Virus record (IMG/VR): IMGVR_UViG_3300021087_000575 | Span: 1 to 30,286 of that record | Strand: one strand, 5' to 3' | Length of the DNA stretch: 30,286 nucleotides | Source of the DNA: a virus | Part shown: in pieces, positions 12,679-27,296 of the stretch | Layout of the letters: each line of letters begins with the position of its first letter | Position numbering within the stretch: the stretch's first letter is position 1 | Notes under the pieces: generated by a model | What the model was told of the DNA's origin: nothing | Databases searched by the model: none | Seen by the model: only the letters and a program-made list of their open reading frames with translations | Translations under genes and position numbers: made by a program

Positions 12679-13284
12679 CTATCCAATTTTATCTTCAGAA
12701 CCTATACCATCTGATAGGTTCAACTGTAACGCTTCACCACCTGTATCATACTCCCTTCCTTCCAAAAAGGCAAGGATATTCTGCGGAGAAGATACACCAT
12801 ATGGGTCGTCCAAAGCATTGTTTGTAAAACCTCGTTCAACGAACGTCTGTTCGATCTCAAAGTTCTTCACAATCATAGCATAACGCCATGAACGAATACC
12901 GAAGCCAAGGTTGTCCTTGTAAACATCCATTCCCATGGAAGAAGTAAACTTACCAGATCCATCTGGGATTACTTTGACGTGTTCAAGTCCTTGATCTTCT
13001 GCCCACTTATTCATCACAAAGGTATCATTTACTGATACACAGAAGATGTTTTCAACACCTGCCTTCTGAAACCGAGGATATAACTCCTCGAAATCAGGAA
13101 GCTGGAATGTAGAACAAGTGGGAGTGAAGGCTCCAGGAAGTGCGAAGATAACACACTTCTCTCGACCTACAATCTCATGGGATAATTGCATTTCCCATGC
13201 GAAAGGATTATCACCACCAACGGATTCATCTCGAACACGGACGTGGTGTACCACATTTGGAATGCGGTGTGGAAATAAAGGCAT
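12679..13284 (-). CDS. peroxiredoxin (Prx5-type)
   Basis: A 201-residue thiol peroxidase. The peroxidatic motif is PGAFTPTCS (P50 to S58, with T54 and C57), and the conserved Arg lies in GIRSWRYAMIV, the typical Prx5/AhpC-TSA pattern. C82 (NIFCVSV) is a candidate second cysteine. The enzyme reduces peroxides at the expense of thiols. AAGGAG precedes ATG 13284. It is inserted between the clamp (45) and clamp-loader (44) genes and shares their early promoter, so it would be made from the start of infection, perhaps to guard against oxidative damage (inference). The C-terminal extension after EGREYDTG is polar and of unknown role. Confidence 0.93.
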   Translation of the reverse strand: MPLFPHRIPNVVHHVRVRDESVGGDNPFAWEMQLSHEIVGREKCVIFALPGAFTPTCSTFQLPDFEELYPRFQKAGVENIFCVSVNDTFVMNKWAEDQGLEHVKVIPDGSGKFTSSMGMDVYKDNLGFGIRSWRYAMIVKNFEIEQTFVERGFTNNALDDPYGVSSPQNILAFLEGREYDTGGEALQLNLSDGIGSEDKIG

Positions 13285-16760: not shown

Positions 16761-17523
16761 TTCCATACTCAATCATCATTGTCTTGATGTTATCTAACAT
16801 TTTATTGTTTTTGATCGACTCCATAACCTGACCATCATCAGAGAAGTCATACATATACAGGAAATCCTCATCAGTCGAGGAGATCTCATGCACCTTCAGT
16901 AACTTTTTAACTTGAAGGAAATGTAAAAGATCCTCGGCAATGTCGAGGCTCTCATTGAATTTATAATTTGCCGCAGCACGGCTGTATAGAAGATACCGAT
17001 TAAATGGCTCTCCATTGAAAGTCTGAGAACGAATAAACTCTTTGTATTTGAAGTAATAGTCTAGATCTTCCTTTTCCCAAGTCAGACCGTGGCGCATAAT
17101 CTTGGGCAGTGTTTCAATATCGCTCAATGTGATCTTCTTACCGCTAGAGGATATTGCATATCCGTTAGTCAGGCATGCAACATCAAACTCGTTGTTTTCG
17201 ATCTCCTCATGTAATCGAGCAATACAAGTTTCAGAAATGTAATCATCTCCATCGATCTGAAGGAGATAATCAGCGTCAGTAGCGAGGAAGTATCTCAGGA
17301 CAGAGTTCTTTCCCATTCCTGGAGTCCCGTTCGACTTTGTTTTTGTCACAGGGAATCTATGATCAAAAGAAATTTGGGTCGCCAGAGAAGAGTAGTCGGC
17401 ATCAGTTGTATTAATAACGACGATCCGCTCATGAGGAGAGAGGTTTGAGTTCACGGATTCCAAACACCGCTTCAACTTCTCTGGCTTCCCATTGGTCAGG
17501 ATAGCGACCAAAACTTTAGCCAT
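16753..17523 (-). CDS. GT2-family glycosyltransferase
   Basis: A 256-residue GT-A fold enzyme: MAKVLVAILTNGKPEKLKRCLES is the nucleotide-binding start, and LLQIDGDDYI (DGDD at 91-94) is the metal-binding DXD region. GMGKNSVLRYFL lies between them. It has no membrane segment, so it is probably cytoplasmic, moving a sugar from an NDP-sugar to an unknown acceptor. ATG 17523 is chosen over upstream in-frame codons because AAGGAAC precedes it. The start overlaps the DUF3310-like stop by 8 bp. It is co-transcribed with the ketosynthase and desaturase genes, which hints at a glycolipid or modified-envelope product; DNA or virion glycosylation is an alternative. Confidence 0.88.
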   Translation of the reverse strand: MAKVLVAILTNGKPEKLKRCLESVNSNLSPHERIVVINTTDADYSSLATQISFDHRFPVTKTKSNGTPGMGKNSVLRYFLATDADYLLQIDGDDYISETCIARLHEEIENNEFDVACLTNGYAISSSGKKITLSDIETLPKIMRHGLTWEKEDLDYYFKYKEFIRSQTFNGEPFNRYLLYSRAAANYKFNESLDIAEDLLHFLQVKKLLKVHEISSTDEDFLYMYDFSDDGQVMESIKNNKMLDNIKTMMIEYGNE

Positions 17524-17830
17524 CTGAATGTTCCTTGTCGTGAACATACAGAGCAATTAAACCATAATGCAAGACTTTCAGTAAGTCTTTGCGATTGTAT
17601 CCATCTTTGTTTCCATAGCGTTGAGCATACTTCATAATGTTGCCGATGGTGAAACCCTCACCATGACCGCCATCAATAATAAACTCAGTGGCTTGAAATT
17701 TGTTTTGCGAATAATGCTCGCCATACGTGGCATCAACATACTTCTGAAGGTCAGCCATCAACTGACCCTCATTGTATTTGTAATCAATCAATCCATATTC
17801 CTCAGCAGTTATTTCCATAGACTCGGACAT
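17516..17830 (-). CDS. DUF3310-like protein
   Basis: A 104-residue protein whose second half fits the DUF3310 pattern found in many phages: ATEFIIDGGHGEGFTIGNIMKYAQRYGNK, with conserved E/H and KYxxRxxxK, followed by a helix NRKDLLKVLHYGLIALYV. Family members are phage proteins of unknown biochemical role, sometimes labelled nucleotide-kinase-like. ATG 17830 has GGAAAG upstream and lies 6 nt after the cobS stop, so it is the second gene of that operon. Its last bases contain the start of the glycosyltransferase. Confidence 0.82.
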   Translation of the reverse strand: MSESMEITAEEYGLIDYKYNEGQLMADLQKYVDATYGEHYSQNKFQATEFIIDGGHGEGFTIGNIMKYAQRYGNKDGYNRKDLLKVLHYGLIALYVHDKEHSDG

Positions 17831-17836
17831 CACTTT

Positions 17837-18991
17837 CTACTTTCCAAATAATTCATCTAATTCATCTTGAGACGCAACAACAGTCTCATCATCAGTCAGC
17901 GCACCAGCATCGACCTTGGTATATAGGTCAATGAATGCCGCACGAGTATCTTCATCGAAGCGATTCACGCACATCTCGATCGCTTTAAGGCGGTCATCGA
18001 ACATAGCGTAGGCATTGACGATGTGCTCAATACGACGAGTTGATACGAGGTCATCGATCGCGCCTTCGTTGAAGGTCTTGCGGATAACGTCAGCCCAGCG
18101 AACCAGCTTCTCAGCGAAGTCCTCATCGACCTTACCGACACGCTGCATCTTGCCAAGCACGATACGCTTCTCTTGTGATTCAGTAGGAAACTGTTGCTCA
18201 ATAGTGATAGCAAAACGCTCAAGGAATGCCTCATCAAGAATCTGGGCAGAGATAAACTTGCCATCATCAGAGCCACGACCCTTGGTGTTAGCAGTAGCGA
18301 CAACAGTGAAGCCAGCAGAAGGTGCGACCATCTCACCAGTCTTCTTGTTGAAGTATGGCTTACCCTCAAGGATAGCCTGCAGACACATCAGCTTGTTAGA
18401 GCCACGATCCAGTTCGTCTAGAATCAGAACCGAGCCACGCTTCATGGCGGTCAAAACTGGACCTTCACGATACACGACATTGCCATCAACCAGCGTGTTA
18501 CCACCGATCAAATCATCCTCGTCAGTCTCAACAGAGATATTGACGCGGATCGCTTCACGCTTTAGTTTAGCGCAAATTTGCTCGATCATCGTGGTCTTAC
18601 CATTACCTGATAGACCAGAGATGAAGGTAGGATAGAACAGACCAGACTTGATAATCTTGGTCAGGTCTTTGTGGAAGCCGAACGCCACATAGGTGGGGTC
18701 GACCACGGGGACGAGGTTATCAACCTCAACTGCAAGTTTGGCTTGCGTCACGACTTTTGCATCCTGTACTGGGGCAGGAGCGGTCACAGGAGCATTATTG
18801 CTCACAACAACCTTCAACCCTGCTGCATCTACAGCGTATTTATTGTATCCAACTTTGTTCTCGCGAAAGAACCAGTGGGGGTATGATATGCCGAGATCCT
18901 CAACGATCTGGGCAACTTCTGGACGACTGAATGTCTCTTGACTCTTGGCATTCAGGGCTTCAAATAGCTTCTCACGATTCAACTTACTCAT
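17837..18991 (-). CDS. cobS: CobS-like / MoxR-type AAA+ ATPase
   Basis: A 384-residue AAA+ protein. The N-terminal 60 residues form a small domain (EKLFEALNAKSQETFSRPEVAQIVEDLG), followed by an Ala/Pro-rich linker. The core has Walker A GLSGNGKT (126-133), Walker B LILDELDRG (DELDR 192-196), sensor VVATANTKGRG and the DEAFLERF box. Phage cobS genes are named after the cobaltochelatase subunit but belong to the MoxR ATPases, which usually work with a VWA protein. The gene just upstream encodes such a VWA protein. ATG 18991 is chosen for GAGAGGAT at 7 nt. It heads the operon through the lipid genes, from the early promoter at 19024-19052. Confidence 0.93.
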   Translation of the reverse strand: MSKLNREKLFEALNAKSQETFSRPEVAQIVEDLGISYPHWFFRENKVGYNKYAVDAAGLKVVVSNNAPVTAPAPVQDAKVVTQAKLAVEVDNLVPVVDPTYVAFGFHKDLTKIIKSGLFYPTFISGLSGNGKTTMIEQICAKLKREAIRVNISVETDEDDLIGGNTLVDGNVVYREGPVLTAMKRGSVLILDELDRGSNKLMCLQAILEGKPYFNKKTGEMVAPSAGFTVVATANTKGRGSDDGKFISAQILDEAFLERFAITIEQQFPTESQEKRIVLGKMQRVGKVDEDFAEKLVRWADVIRKTFNEGAIDDLVSTRRIEHIVNAYAMFDDRLKAIEMCVNRFDEDTRAAFIDLYTKVDAGALTDDETVVASQDELDELFGK

Positions 18992-19023
18992 AACATAATC
19001 CTCTCTCATCAAGTTATATACAT

Positions 19024-19052
19024 ATTATCGCTCATTCGAGCACAAAAGTCAA
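19024..19052 (-). promoter_or_regulatory. early promoter P6 for cobS and the lipid operon
   Basis: Minus strand: -35 TTGACT (19047-19052, within GCTTGAC), 17-bp spacer, -10 GATAAT (19024-19029). The TGA stop of the upstream VWA gene lies within the -35. The spacer contains a short inverted repeat (GCTC-ATTC-GAGC, 19030-19041) that could be an operator. Confidence 0.85.
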
Positions 19053-21304
19053 GCGATTTTTTCAATAAATTTACCTAAAAATTTGCGCGAGGTAGTCTTT
19101 TTCTTCTGGAACTTCTTGAATCCACGAACCAGATCACCTTTCTTATCACCTTCTACCTCCAACTCAGACTCCTCTCCGAGGTCTTTAGAGCGAAGGATGA
19201 ACGCTGTCGGGAAGCCATCCAGACCATCCATTTGGATGTATCCATCACTCAACCACTCTGTCTTCCAAGACTTCTCGAAGGCTTCTCCAGCATTCCAACC
19301 GTGCATATTTGTGTGGTATTGCCTGATTTGGTTCTTGCCTGCGTCACTCAGGAAGTAGTTTACAGTGCGAGACCCAGTGGTCTTGTCATAGTGAGCAATC
19401 AGCGTCTTACAGACCACATCGTTGAACCGCGAACTGTACAAGCGATCCGAGTGATTGCTCATGGTTGTCATACCGTTCTCACGGATAGCCACGCGATCAC
19501 TGCCATAGACATATGAGCGACTCGGAGACGACTGATTCCCCATACCAAGATGTCCAGTATTACCGCCATCTGTCAAGAACAGAGTGTTCAGAACATCAAT
19601 GCGGTTATTGTTGCGGAAGTCGATAGCGATATCGCGCATCAATAGGATAGTAGAGTCCAGCGGTGTACCACCAAGACCAAGATGATTTGGTAGATCATAC
19701 TGATTACAGTATGGCGCACCCGACTTGCGAGTCCTATAGTCAGAATATGCAGAGCCGACCATAAGCATCATCTGGTGTGCTTTCTTATACATCGTTGAAG
19801 ACATACCAGAGTGAAGCAGACGATTGATGCTCAGGTCTGTATCGACCAACTGAAGATCGCCTTCCTTTTGATTGTCGATATGATGTCTAGCATTCGGATT
19901 ACCGTAGTATCCACAAGTGAAAGAGTAGACCTCAAACGGGATACCAACCTTGCGGCAGAAGGCAACTTGAAGTAGCATCTGCTCAATGGTGGCTTGCATC
20001 TTGTTGTACATAGAACCAGAGAAGTCAATGACCATCAACATACCATGGTTCTTGCCATCAGGAGTAACAGTGCTGGACAGGAACACATCCTCAGTCAGCT
20101 TGGTTGCCCACAACTTGTTCATGTTCAAGTCACCAGTCTTGTGTTCACGAGACTTGGCAAGTTGGTTTGCTTTACGCTTGGCTTCGAACTGGGAGACCAT
20201 AAGGTTCAGGAAGGGACGATTCTTCTTGTTAAAATTGTTTACAAGAGTCTTTCCGCACTCATCAAACCCAATCCGATCAGCATCATCAAACCAGCTATGC
20301 TTCATGGTATCTGTAGAATAGAATTTATTGATGTCACGAAGATGTTTCTCAACACCATCGAGAGCATTCATATTCACGAACTTTTTGTAGTCCAGCTTGG
20401 GGAAGTTTACCCACTGGATATCACCACGAGTATTCTGGTCGATCAACTTGCCTTCGTTGTTGCGGAAGTTTTGGTCAGTGACAGAGACTGGCTCATCAGC
20501 ATAGTCATCTTCCATCGAGTCAAAGGATTGCTCATCATCTTCTACAGAGGATTCTGAGTCAGAAGAGTCAGACTCTTGCTCTTCATTAGACTCACCAGAG
20601 TCATCAGAGTCGTGGGTCTCACCCTCATCGCTCTCCTGATCATCTTGTGTCTCAGAGCCAGAAGTTTCAGAAGGTTCAAACCCATCTTCGTCTGACTCTT
20701 CATCTTGATCACCGTGGAAGGCATCAGAAAGATTCGTCTCTGTATCTTCTTCTTCTTTGGCATAGTCATACAATTCGTTGGAGACATCGACAACATCATC
20801 CCAAGTCTCACAGCGAGCAACACGGTCAACAAAGACCTGCTCTTCAGAGGTAAACTCGACATTGGCGAACATACCAACTTTGTAGAACAGATTGATTCGA
20901 TCGATCAGGGGATAATCATTGATGTTGTTATCACCGAGACCGAAGAAGTCCATCTCAAACAACTCGCGATATCCTTTGAAGAAACTCTTGGTGAGTCCAG
21001 GAAAACGCTTCTTGATGTCACGCTCGATACGGGCATCTTCAACAACATTAAGGAAGGACTTGAAGCCGCGACCCTTTGTCTCAATAGAATCGTGCCAACC
21101 CTCAAGTGGGGTATTCAGCGCATGGCTGACTTCGTGACCGATGAAGAGATCATACAGCTCATTGCTGATGTCAGACTTCAAGATAGGAAGGACGACTTTG
21201 CGCTCTTTCAGGTCAAAATATGCGGTGGGGACTTTCTTATGCTCGAGAGTAATATTCTCAGTAGCGAGCAATTTAGCCAGTGTACTTTTACGTTCGATTT
21301 CCAT
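19049..21304 (-). CDS. CobT-like VWA protein with HExxH metallopeptidase motif
   Basis: A 751-residue protein in three parts. The N-terminal region (1-180) has a zinc-peptidase signature HEVSH at 57-61 and a downstream NVVEDARIE (E89, D90) that could give the third ligand. A long Asp/Glu/Ser linker (about 185-275) follows. The C-terminal von Willebrand A domain has MIDAS residues DFSGS (D427, S429, S431), a Thr in GGTPLDST and an Asp in FLTDGG. This is the CobT-like partner class of MoxR/CobS ATPases, whose gene is directly downstream. It has its own early promoter and GAGGAG before ATG 21304. A phage chelatase is unlikely because no CobN is seen; a remodelling or protease machine is the better guess. 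Confidence 0.88.
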   Translation of the reverse strand: MEIERKSTLAKLLATENITLEHKKVPTAYFDLKERKVVLPILKSDISNELYDLFIGHEVSHALNTPLEGWHDSIETKGRGFKSFLNVVEDARIERDIKKRFPGLTKSFFKGYRELFEMDFFGLGDNNINDYPLIDRINLFYKVGMFANVEFTSEEQVFVDRVARCETWDDVVDVSNELYDYAKEEEDTETNLSDAFHGDQDEESDEDGFEPSETSGSETQDDQESDEGETHDSDDSGESNEEQESDSSDSESSVEDDEQSFDSMEDDYADEPVSVTDQNFRNNEGKLIDQNTRGDIQWVNFPKLDYKKFVNMNALDGVEKHLRDINKFYSTDTMKHSWFDDADRIGFDECGKTLVNNFNKKNRPFLNLMVSQFEAKRKANQLAKSREHKTGDLNMNKLWATKLTEDVFLSSTVTPDGKNHGMLMVIDFSGSMYNKMQATIEQMLLQVAFCRKVGIPFEVYSFTCGYYGNPNARHHIDNQKEGDLQLVDTDLSINRLLHSGMSSTMYKKAHQMMLMVGSAYSDYRTRKSGAPYCNQYDLPNHLGLGGTPLDSTILLMRDIAIDFRNNNRIDVLNTLFLTDGGNTGHLGMGNQSSPSRSYVYGSDRVAIRENGMTTMSNHSDRLYSSRFNDVVCKTLIAHYDKTTGSRTVNYFLSDAGKNQIRQYHTNMHGWNAGEAFEKSWKTEWLSDGYIQMDGLDGFPTAFILRSKDLGEESELEVEGDKKGDLVRGFKKFQKKKTTSRKFLGKFIEKIA

Positions 21305-21328: not shown

Positions 21329-21357
21329 ATTATCGTTCATATTGAGGTAAATGTCAA
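21329..21357 (-). promoter_or_regulatory. early promoter P7 for the VWA gene
   Basis: Minus strand: -35 TTGACA (21352-21357, within GCTTGAC), 17-bp spacer, -10 GATAAT (21329-21334). The leader is about 18 nt, with GAGGAG before the ATG. Confidence 0.85.
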
Positions 21358-21406: not shown

Positions 21407-21787
21407 TTACTCAAATTTGTCAAAATATCTTGTGAGAGCCTTGATTTTTTCGATCTGTTTGTCGATAATCACAGCCCGATTTGGCCATCTGATGATGTCT
21501 TTCTCGGGATTCTTCTTTAGATTCAGGAGGAGGGGGAGGATTAGGTCTTCAACGTCTCTTAGCTTTACCGCCACATCCTGCTCCACGAGAGCACGGTGTT
21601 CGTTAACAGCACCTGAGTTATCGGATGAAAGGATACGAGCATCAAGCTGCTCGAGTTTATCCATAATGGCGTCAATCTGGTCAGAAGGGATCTCAGCCTG
21701 AACAGGTTGTTGTGTGGCGGTCGACACTTCTAGGTCGTCCTCGTCCACCATTGTGAACCCAAAATCATAATCGTCAGACATATTCAT
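21407..21787 (-). CDS. late acidic/helical protein, possibly virion-associated
   Basis: A 126-residue protein beginning MNMSDDYDFGFTMVDEDDLE, a very acidic start, followed by helical segments (IPSDQIDAIMDKLEQLDARIL) and a more basic C-terminal half (ILPLLLNLKKNPEKDIIRWPN...KALTRYF). A T4-type late promoter at 21803-21810 and GAGGAGC before the ATG show it is late-expressed, unlike the early genes around it. T4-like marine phages have similar proteins (from memory), and a structural or assembly role is likely from timing alone. Another in-frame ATG two codons in (21781) is possible. Confidence 0.8.
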   Translation of the reverse strand: MNMSDDYDFGFTMVDEDDLEVSTATQQPVQAEIPSDQIDAIMDKLEQLDARILSSDNSGAVNEHRALVEQDVAVKLRDVEDLILPLLLNLKKNPEKDIIRWPNRAVIIDKQIEKIKALTRYFDKFE

Positions 21788-21802: not shown

Positions 21803-21810
21803 TATTTATA
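21803..21810 (-). promoter_or_regulatory. late promoter TATAAATA
   Basis: An exact late consensus on the minus strand, directly after the stop codon of the 64-aa basic gene. The expected start is about 10 nt before ATG 21787, with GAGGAG between. Confidence 0.8.
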
Positions 21811-26131: not shown

Positions 26132-26679
26132 GTCCGTAAAATCTTTACCAGAGTGTTGGTTTGGCTGATAGCATCATCCAGAGCATTATGATGTGTATCG
26201 TCTTCAGTTGCTCGGATCTTTGCGTTGCTGACTCCGACCAGATTAGTCGCAGTTTTGAAACAATGGATATGCCAGTATTTCCAAGGTGGTTTCTCGTGTC
26301 CAATAGAGTACATGGCAGACTCTAGGATTTGCACATCAAACCCTGCGCTGTTACCCCAGATAGGGATAGACTTATCGCCATACCAATCACGGAACTCATT
26401 GATGGCTTTCTCAAACGGCATTGTGTCGACCATAAGTTGTTTCAGAGCATGCTTATTCTGCTTGCTCCACCATTCAATTGTACCTTTATCAATATGTCGA
26501 TCGTACTTCTTTGCTGTCGAAGCATCGATGTTTTGATAATAGGTATCAATAACACCTGTCTCGATATTGAATTTGGTCGCTCCAATAGATAGGATAGCTG
26601 CATTACCTCTCGTGCTGAGAGTTTCGATATCAACCATCACCTGATATTGTTTTGGATCCATGAAAAGTTGTGCGCTCAT
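26128..26679 (-). CDS. dexA: DnaQ-fold 3'-5' exonuclease (DexA / Rv2179c-like)
   Basis: A 183-residue DEDDh-type exonuclease: VDIETL gives the first two acidic ligands (D17, E19), with ILSIGATKFN, GTIEWWSKQN (the EWW phrase also seen in T4 DexA), NSAGFDVQILES with the third Asp, and HHNALDDAISQ with the His and fourth Asp. T4 DexA degrades DNA from 3' ends; relatives act on RNA. The length is shorter than T4 DexA (227). ATG 26679 overlaps the gene 55 stop (TAATG), with AAGGAA about 13 nt upstream. The exact substrate is open, so the gene symbol is by family resemblance. Confidence 0.85.
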   Translation of the reverse strand: MSAQLFMDPKQYQVMVDIETLSTRGNAAILSIGATKFNIETGVIDTYYQNIDASTAKKYDRHIDKGTIEWWSKQNKHALKQLMVDTMPFEKAINEFRDWYGDKSIPIWGNSAGFDVQILESAMYSIGHEKPPWKYWHIHCFKTATNLVGVSNAKIRATEDDTHHNALDDAISQTNTLVKILRT

Positions 26680-27296
26680 TAGTCTTTTGTTTCCTTGTCC
26701 ATATCTTGCATTACTTCAAGTTTCTCTTTGGCAAGTTTCAATGCTTCTTTGTCATCGAGGTATTTTGGTCTGCGCTTCTTCAATCCAGCTTTCTGATCAG
26801 CATGTTTCTCTTCTAGTTGTGCTGCTTCGTCAACTGCTTTTCGGATATACTCTAAATACTCGGTGTTTCCGTCATTGCCATCAGTATCAGACATCATCAA
26901 TTCTTGCATATCTAGACTACCGATAAACTTCTTCTTCGTATCCATCTGTTTCTTTTCTTTCTGAATACGACGAATGAATGCATAATAAGTAATCTGTGTG
27001 AAATATGCAAACGGATTTTTTGATTTCTCTGGATCGAAGTTATCAATATATGTGATACAGTTTTCGATACCGTCGAGAATCATCTCATCGCGGAATGTAT
27101 AGTTTACAAAGTTGGATTTATATGCGAGGTGGTTGCCGATCTTCACCATACATTCACCGAGATATTCGGTTACTCGAGGTTTTTGCTCACCAGCAGCTTT
27201 TGCAGCTTGCACTCGCTCCCTGTATGCGGTAATCGCAACAAGGAATTCTTTGTTGTCAACATAGTGTCGACTATTGGGATCTCTTCTTTTAGCCAT
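26679..27296 (-). CDS. 55: late sigma factor gp55
   Basis: A 205-residue sigma-70-family late factor (T4 gp55 has 185) that directs host RNA polymerase to TATAAATA promoters together with gp33 and the clamp. The region-2-like core YKSNFVNYTFRDEMILDGIENCI, then DNFDPEKSKNPFAYFTQITYYAFIRRIQKEKKQ, is almost the T4 wording. The C-terminal part is charged. ATG 27296 lies only about 3 nt after the start predicted from the early promoter at 27306-27334, so it may be translated from a nearly leaderless mRNA; GGTGA at 27301-27305 could serve on longer read-through transcripts. Confidence 0.96.
   Translation of the reverse strand: MAKRRDPNSRHYVDNKEFLVAITAYRERVQAAKAAGEQKPRVTEYLGECMVKIGNHLAYKSNFVNYTFRDEMILDGIENCITYIDNFDPEKSKNPFAYFTQITYYAFIRRIQKEKKQMDTKKKFIGSLDMQELMMSDTDGNDGNTEYLEYIRKAVDEAAQLEEKHADQKAGLKKRRPKYLDDKEALKLAKEKLEVMQDMDKETKD

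Follow-up and report, generated by a model that had tools for sequence, protein, structure and literature searches.

The DNA analysed here, called the window throughout, is a virus record of 30,286 bases (IMG/VR IMGVR_UViG_3300021087_000575), that is, a genome fragment of about 30 kb from a marine, T4-like phage. It carries, on the minus strand, a gene for a 751-amino-acid (aa) protein followed after 36 bp by a cobS-like gene for a MoxR-type AAA+ ATPase of 391 aa, and both open reading frames (ORFs) lie where an earlier note on this DNA had placed them (Table 1). Our principal finding is that the larger protein is, by a chain of sequence profiles, a homologue of CobT, the usual partner of CobS, and keeps a protease motif that is gone from all 30 of the cellular CobTs surveyed. 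The pair itself is already known, being core in T4-like cyanophages with two conflicting published readings, a status that the earlier note had overlooked. In the accessible portions of the papers concerned, the cyanophage pair appears as core cobST and the name 'peptidase' is called a mistake (PMC8651126; repeated in PMC9503304), whereas for the group 2.2 jumbo phages a MoxR-vWA pair with an N-terminal metallopeptidase is reported and a part in virion assembly proposed (PMC7824862). What is new here is that both published readings are half true, in that one and the same protein is a CobT homologue and retains the protease site.

The first line of evidence comes from the predicted structure of the N-terminal domain, which was folded alone because fold searches with the whole model listed only the half with the von Willebrand factor A (VWA) domain. 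The full-length model is moderate (predicted local distance difference test score, pLDDT, 73.3; predicted template modelling score, pTM, 0.63; residues 191-268 with pLDDT under 50), and the AlphaFold2 (AF2) model of residues 1-195 reaches pLDDT 89.0 and pTM 0.85, with three short strands, a helix (48-64) bearing HExxH, a short helix and a further helix (79-100) bearing ED.RIE. HExxH on one helix and a glutamate on the next is the gluzincin arrangement, found here with modest fold similarity. In the Foldseek search against the PDB, ranks 1-6 were minigluzincins (jannalysin, abylysin and selecase; E 0.028-0.32, best probability 0.97). VIA-align placed ZMPSTE24 on top (Z 7.0, root-mean-square deviation 3.7, 135 residues aligned), followed by ArdC and BlaR1 (6.2 each), BepA (5.6), abylysin and jannalysin (5.5) and IrrE (5.3), and its rows 1-19 (Z 4.4-7.0) consist of ZMPSTE24, ArdC, BlaR1, BepA, abylysin, jannalysin, selecase and IrrE/PprI, all of which we take to be HExxH zincins. 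The scores for this predicted fold are thus modest, but the list of matches is uniform. With the minigluzincins and the ArdC/IrrE/M48-type gluzincins the domain would share the succession of strands, HExxH-bearing helix and glutamate-bearing helix; it differs from them in the weakness of the scores, in having no sequence family match and in its fusion to a VWA domain. The same domain had 16 matches at E <= 0.001 in a library of viral structures, with CobT, VWFA and a haloarchaeal tailed-virus protein among the names. Chain 9uka, a solved CobT, was not among the Foldseek matches listed, an uninformative absence.

Conservation points the same way. Restricting the full-length alignment to ORFs of at least 650 aa (60) left 42 distinct proteins including that of the window, and in all 42 the residues H57, E58, H61, E89, D90, R92, I93 and E94, as well as D427, S429, S431, T547 and D579 of the metal ion-dependent adhesion site (MIDAS) in the VWA domain, were invariant. 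From 96 N-domain matches, of which 10 partial ones were set aside, 61 were distinct and 52 remained after a 95% identity filter; every one of these 52 has HExxH, and in an alignment of 48 N-domains H57, E58, H61, E89, D90, R92 and I93 did not vary, with E94 conserved in at least 90%. Such invariance across relatives argues that the HExxH and MIDAS motifs are not due to chance, and makes E89 the likely third zinc ligand. The features that the earlier note had described, namely HEVSH, an ED pair, an acidic linker and a complete MIDAS, were all recovered by sequence, alignment and model, the zincin-like topology for which it had suggested a check was obtained in the model of the N-domain, and the loss of HEVSH among relatives that would have spoken against it was not seen.

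The relatives themselves are numerous and mostly distant. The phrog_459 profile ('peptidase') matches residues 4-751 of the protein (E 2.3e-174), and tblastn found relatives in 463 phage records, every one below 60% identity, assigned by name to Synechococcus (365), 'Cyanophage' (61), Prochlorococcus (24), Marine (7), Pelagibacter (3) and, with one each, Stenotrophomonas, Ochrobactrum and Pseudoalteromonas. Identity to these deposited phage relatives, the cyanophage and pelagiphage ones included, does not exceed about 33% over the length of the protein; six marine virus contigs come closer (55-100% identity). A scan of genome contigs with the single protein sequence gave no relative, and the scan with the alignment gave 21 loci, many of them on short metagenome-bin contigs of phage-like appearance. 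The 751-aa protein matched no family in Pfam (E up to 1) or NCBIfam and no defence family in PADLOC, where the ATPase alone had weak matches to IetA (0.00093 and 0.0054), and a sequence search of the PDB with a profile of the partner protein returned nothing meaningful. In Pseudoalteromonas phage XG4, the VWA and HEVSH parts are separate neighbouring genes in reverse order (L112:4884-6083 and L112:6095-7126); the cobS match of that phage is split over two ORFs, and its record is marked unverified.

The kinship with CobT has to be traced through intermediates. The 751-aa protein does not reach the cut-offs of the Pfam CobT models PF06213 and PF11775, and since a direct hhalign comparison of the T4-like N-domains with those of cellular CobTs is not significant (probability 3.1), the link rests on an intermediate set of phage proteins, to which the T4-like N-domains are joined with a probability of 98.3 and which is joined in turn to the cellular N-domains with 86.9. 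PHROG 459 likewise matches RHph_N1_10 (E 3e-9), SSU5 (1.3e-5) and a protein of the IncC plasmid (5.2e-5), in each case around or over the motif. Twelve CobT-like proteins of phages and plasmids were picked by eye for diversity, so that their proportions are no estimate of frequency; nine of them bear HExxH (RHph_N1_10, RHph_X66, SSU5, Saratov-15, CRP-810, T5S1, the IncC plasmid, and the E. coli and K. pneumoniae phage-plasmid types). Three of the nine, CRP-810, T5S1 and SSU5, exceed the Pfam cut-off for the CobT N-domain (57.5, 42.3 and 129.6 vs 26.1 bits). Among 150 genomes, all drawn from one phylum, 40 had a cellular CobT, and in the 30 that became loci HExxH occurs nowhere in the ORF (0/30). 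Where its place could be located by motif (13 of these 30 loci), it reads DSMAL or DSIAL, with EQ.R(V/I)E in the position of the phage ED.RIE.

The C-terminal halves were also placed in a tree of 30 rows, which included nine of the 30 cellular CobTs. These nine group in a single clade (100/100) within a set of 12 rows (95/93) whose other members, Saratov-15, CRP-810 and T5S1, all bear HExxH; at least two changes are required to account for the label 'lost'. An active ancestor with two losses is the likely direction, though not a proven one given the long branches and the midpoint rooting of this tree. Perhaps the least-noticed point of all is that cellular CobT, nested among viral proteins, has the look of a dead gluzincin. 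Because phage proteins with a CobT domain above the Pfam cut-off keep HExxH, and because the cellular CobTs nest among HExxH-bearing viral ones, we would tentatively go one step further, in a proposal we hold to be somewhat less than an even bet: cellular CobT may be a dead protease, the motor of the chelatase having been recruited from a viral or mobile-element AAA+/VWA machine whose gluzincin was active, and the 'cobS/cobT' auxiliary metabolic genes reported from viromes may for the most part encode remodelling proteases. Were this so, it would account for both the origin of the N-terminal half of cellular CobT and its fold. In the literature we recognised no publication that describes the N-domain of CobT as a zincin, one candidate paper (PMC9503650) aside.

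The ATPase and the VWA half bring the second component of the argument. The ATPase matches phrog_249 (E 6.4e-107), its solved relatives are the AAA domain of midasin, CobS and NorQ, and among Pfam families it scores 59.3 bits for AAA_5 and 20.8 for CbbQ_C, barely above the cut-off of 20.6; against the CobS equivalog TIGR01650 it obtains 99.2 bits, below the cut-off of 558.55. Translation more probably begins at the in-frame ATG of position 18991, giving 384 aa, because the -10 box extends to 19024 and 8 nucleotides separate this ATG from a preceding AGAGAGG ribosome site. The C-terminal half of the partner matches the VWA domain of NorD (Foldseek E 4.5e-4, its closest match) and the MIDAS domain of the midasin MDN1 (Z 17.0), which are docking modules of AAA+ rings. 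What we have is a AAA+ protein of the dynein-related/CobS/NorQ group beside a VWA protein with the MIDAS signature DxSxS...T...D, the arrangement of a MoxR-vWA pair. Here the interpretation of the earlier note, a MoxR/CobS-type ATPase with a MIDAS-complete VWA protein that also carries a gluzincin-like domain, holds; it had missed that this partner is a CobT homologue. For the same reason its remark that no other cobaltochelatase gene is seen stands only in part: TIGR02257 finds no CobN, in a record that covers 30 kb of the genome, and the VWA partner is a homologue of CobT.

Among known systems, the closest is the PHROG 459 and PHROG 249 pair of T4-like cyanophages and pelagiphages, with the same families in the same order and the same place between gp46/47 and gp45/44, both window proteins matching the profiles over their full length and being encoded by adjacent genes. 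The MoxR/vWA-metallopeptidase of the group 2.2 jumbo phages has the same domain plan and gene pairing, a likeness drawn from its description in PMC7824862, the available part of which gives ASV44729.1 and ASV44728.2 as examples and puts the cyanophages in group 2.1 and the pair in group 2.2. Cellular CobST resembles the pair in combining a AAA+ ring with a partner made of N-domain, acidic linker and VWA domain, with homology by profile chain, and differs in its CobT without HExxH and in the score of the window's CobS below the equivalog cut-off. NorQD shares a CbbQ/NorQ-type ATPase with a VWA docking protein; the match spans the VWA half only and implies no protease motif.

The co-occurrence survey that the earlier note had suggested confirmed a near-universal pairing of the two genes. 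In IMG/VR, 64 of 80 cobS loci have a partner match, as do 59 of the 69 loci with at least 2.9 kb on at least one side, each of the 10 misses having a contig end no more than 400 bp to one side of cobS; among the 33 loci longer than 10.5 kb, hereafter the long loci used for neighbourhood counts, the partner is never missing (33/33). Counts of records by name are equal for the two genes (Synechococcus 365/365, Cyanophage 61/61, Prochlorococcus 24/24), equal counts not being identical sets. Pelagibacter phage HTVC008M carries the pair. Cyanophage S-B68 gives no match to the partner profile and only 25.8 bits for PHROG 249, and it is described as having no cobS in the accessible part of the report on it (PMC10665884), which amounts to a joint absence. 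Staphylococcus phage K (Herelleviridae; KF766114.1:20402-21391) shows a CobS-like match of 281 bits over four TAG codons, inside which its annotated gene begins; it has no match to the profile of the CobT-like partner and was, having a CobS-like gene alone, left out of the pair counts.

We consider it rather probable that the pair forms one ATP-driven protein-remodelling machine able to cut its substrate, and that this machine probably acts in phage DNA metabolism. The CobS/MoxR-type protein would form a ring and hydrolyse ATP, and the partner would dock on it through the MIDAS-bearing VWA domain, in the way that NorD uses with NorQ and CobT with CobS. The gluzincin-like domain (HExxH with E89), at the other end of the flexible acidic linker, would then bind zinc and cleave a protein presented or unfolded by the ring. 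As substrate we would suggest, with low confidence, a protein of phage or host DNA replication or recombination, the pair being situated in the replication modules of several phage lineages; a host target or a virion-assembly substrate are further options.

The neighbourhood on which this suggestion draws is that of a T4-like phage. The window encodes a tail tube protein, UvsY, UvsW, a gp55-type late sigma factor and a gp47/46-like nuclease, which is followed by a peptide deformylase, an ORF of 126 aa, the pair and a DUF3310 protein, and then by a glycosyltransferase, the sliding clamp, the clamp loader, the DNA polymerase (about 50% identical to that of Synechococcus myophages), UvsX and a helicase. 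In the long loci, gp46 is present in 31 of 33 and the clamp in 18 of 33. Beyond these phages, dnaE lies close to the pair in RHph_N1_10, SSU5, nickie, BUCTxx99 and an Acinetobacter plasmid, and T5S1 has a DNA polymerase and a primase/helicase nearby, giving perhaps three independent replication contexts, since several lineages share synteny. This favours DNA metabolism for the pair without showing it, and points there at least as much as to the host protein target that the earlier note had deemed plausible.

Several observations weigh against the reading of the pair as a cutting machine of DNA metabolism. No Foldseek match of the N-domain reaches E 0.001, the best VIA-align Z of 7.0 falls short of 8, the caution level set by that tool, Pfam finds no zincin family in the N-domain of the window, and MPTase-PolyVal is matched in just 2 of 48 members of the N-domain family (best E 0.024). 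HExxH is absent from nickie, BUCTxx99 and the Acinetobacter phage-plasmid type, three of the twelve phage and plasmid relatives, so that cutting is not needed everywhere. Finally, a position in the replication module is weak evidence for the substrate, the syntenic lineages being non-independent.

Of the alternatives, two seem to us about equally unlikely. One takes the gluzincin domain for a binding or regulatory fold without proteolysis, and the pair, like NorQD or CobST, for a chaperone that solely remodels; the cellular CobTs and the three relatives just named, which lost HExxH and kept the rest, tell us that a scaffold role can exist without catalysis, yet none of the relatives aligned from the family of the window protein departs from the catalytic pattern, which would be unexpected for an idle site. 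The other is a chaperone of virion assembly combined with a processing protease, the role suggested for the pair of the group 2.2 jumbo phages (PMC7824862); that pair has the same domain plan as ours, and the accessible part of the same paper cites a MoxR-vWA system needed for the assembly of an archaeal virus tail. The CobS (tag 162) and peptidase (tag 163) of S-SZBM1 are absent from the virion table of 30 proteins in the available part of PMC9146016, although an assembly factor need not remain in the particle. Also unfavourable to assembly are the place of the pair among replication genes and the T4-like S-B68, which manages without it.

The promoter-like sites bear on this choice from both sides. 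The window holds seven matches to the sigma-70-like pattern, close to the shuffled mean of 7.2, and the two sites before the pair genes are the best of the seven; the narrower pattern TTGAC-N18-GATAAT occurs 12 times (up to one mismatch) vs 1.34 expected, and both pair-gene sites fit it without mismatch. The two separate promoters of the earlier note are thus real as patterns, and early expression, which would not suit virion assembly, may be suspected from their sigma-70-like form. Conversely, the T4-type late promoter-like box TATAAATA, found 8 times in the window vs 0.93 expected, an enrichment in keeping with late promoters of the T4 type and with the presence of a gp55-type sigma gene, has one copy before the 126-aa ORF, a single gene upstream of the pair, and late transcription is accordingly possible, as assembly would have it. 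A literature search found no useful report on the timing of cobS expression in cyanophages.

Least credible, and in our view very improbable, is an accessory CobST chelatase pair that drives the host's CobN to yield more cobalamin for nucleotide synthesis, with 'peptidase' a misnomer (PMC8651126, as far as its accessible text goes): the partner is indeed a CobT homologue by profile chain, CobS is the best-matching named enzyme family of the ATPase, and S. elongatus has CobN, so that marine cyanobacterial hosts could use the pair as chelatase parts; against this stand the wide shortfall from the CobS equivalog cut-off, the retained protease motif without counterpart in the 30 cellular CobTs, the occurrence of CobN in 5 of 14 control genomes, E. 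coli not among them, and the related pairs in phages and phage-plasmids of enterobacteria. The pair of HTVC008M is also telling, as SAR11 neither needs nor makes B12 according to the accessible part of PMC8552899, and a pair carried in hosts without B12 synthesis makes a chelatase unlikely. The evidence thus points to protein remodelling or cutting rather than to a vitamin B12 role. cobS is among the commonest marine viral 'vitamin B12' genes, at 75% of Baltic water stations for example, as given in the available part of PMC9301287; if its constant partner is a zinc-protease VWA protein, also in phages of non-B12 hosts, then such cobS counts measure protein remodelling and not vitamin synthesis.

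Table 1. Features of the pair and its surroundings, in positions of the window.
Feature	Position	Strand	Basis or remark
751-aa gluzincin-like + acidic linker + VWA protein, viral CobT homologue (by profile chain)	19049..21304	-	ATG start; PHROG 459 'peptidase'
N-terminal domain, residues 1-190, predicted gluzincin-like fold	20735..21304	-	AF2 model, Foldseek and VIA-align matches
HEVSH motif, residues 57-61, in helix 48-64	21122..21136	-	sequence, alignment, model
ED.RIE motif, residues 89-94, in helix 79-100	21023..21040	-	alignment, model
Acidic low-confidence linker, about residues 191-275	20480..20734	-	pLDDT, sequence
VWA domain, about residues 415-751, MIDAS D427.S429.S431, T547, D579	19049..20062	-	alignment, model, fold matches
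cobS-like MoxR-type AAA+ ATPase, PHROG 249	17837..19012	-	391 aa from TTG; AAA_5 129-249
Promoter-like TTGACA-N17-GATAAT before peptidase-VWA gene, 11/12	21329..21357	-	pattern search
Promoter-like TTGACT-N17-GATAAT before cobS, 10/12, overlapping the end of the upstream gene	19024..19052	-	pattern search
TATAAATA, T4-type late promoter-like box before the 126-aa ORF, one gene upstream of the pair	21803..21810	-	8 in window
126-aa ORF upstream of the pair, no family match	21407..21787	-	sequence; kept there in 23/33 long loci
DUF3310 protein, directly downstream of cobS-like gene	17516..17833	-	PF11753, 38.1 bits
gp55-type sigma gene	26679-27296		

Some further observations concern the surroundings of the pair and its plasmid relatives. 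The 126-aa ORF, from its retention just before the pair in most of the long related loci, is a possible third component. A peroxiredoxin-like gene lies at 12679-13284 of the window, between the genes for the sliding clamp and the clamp loader. In a V. cholerae IncC plasmid (L155:1692-6965), genes for a AAA ATPase, a DUF3150 protein and a VWA protein stand nearly in a row, and the VWA protein contains both HENGH and NIFEDVRIE.

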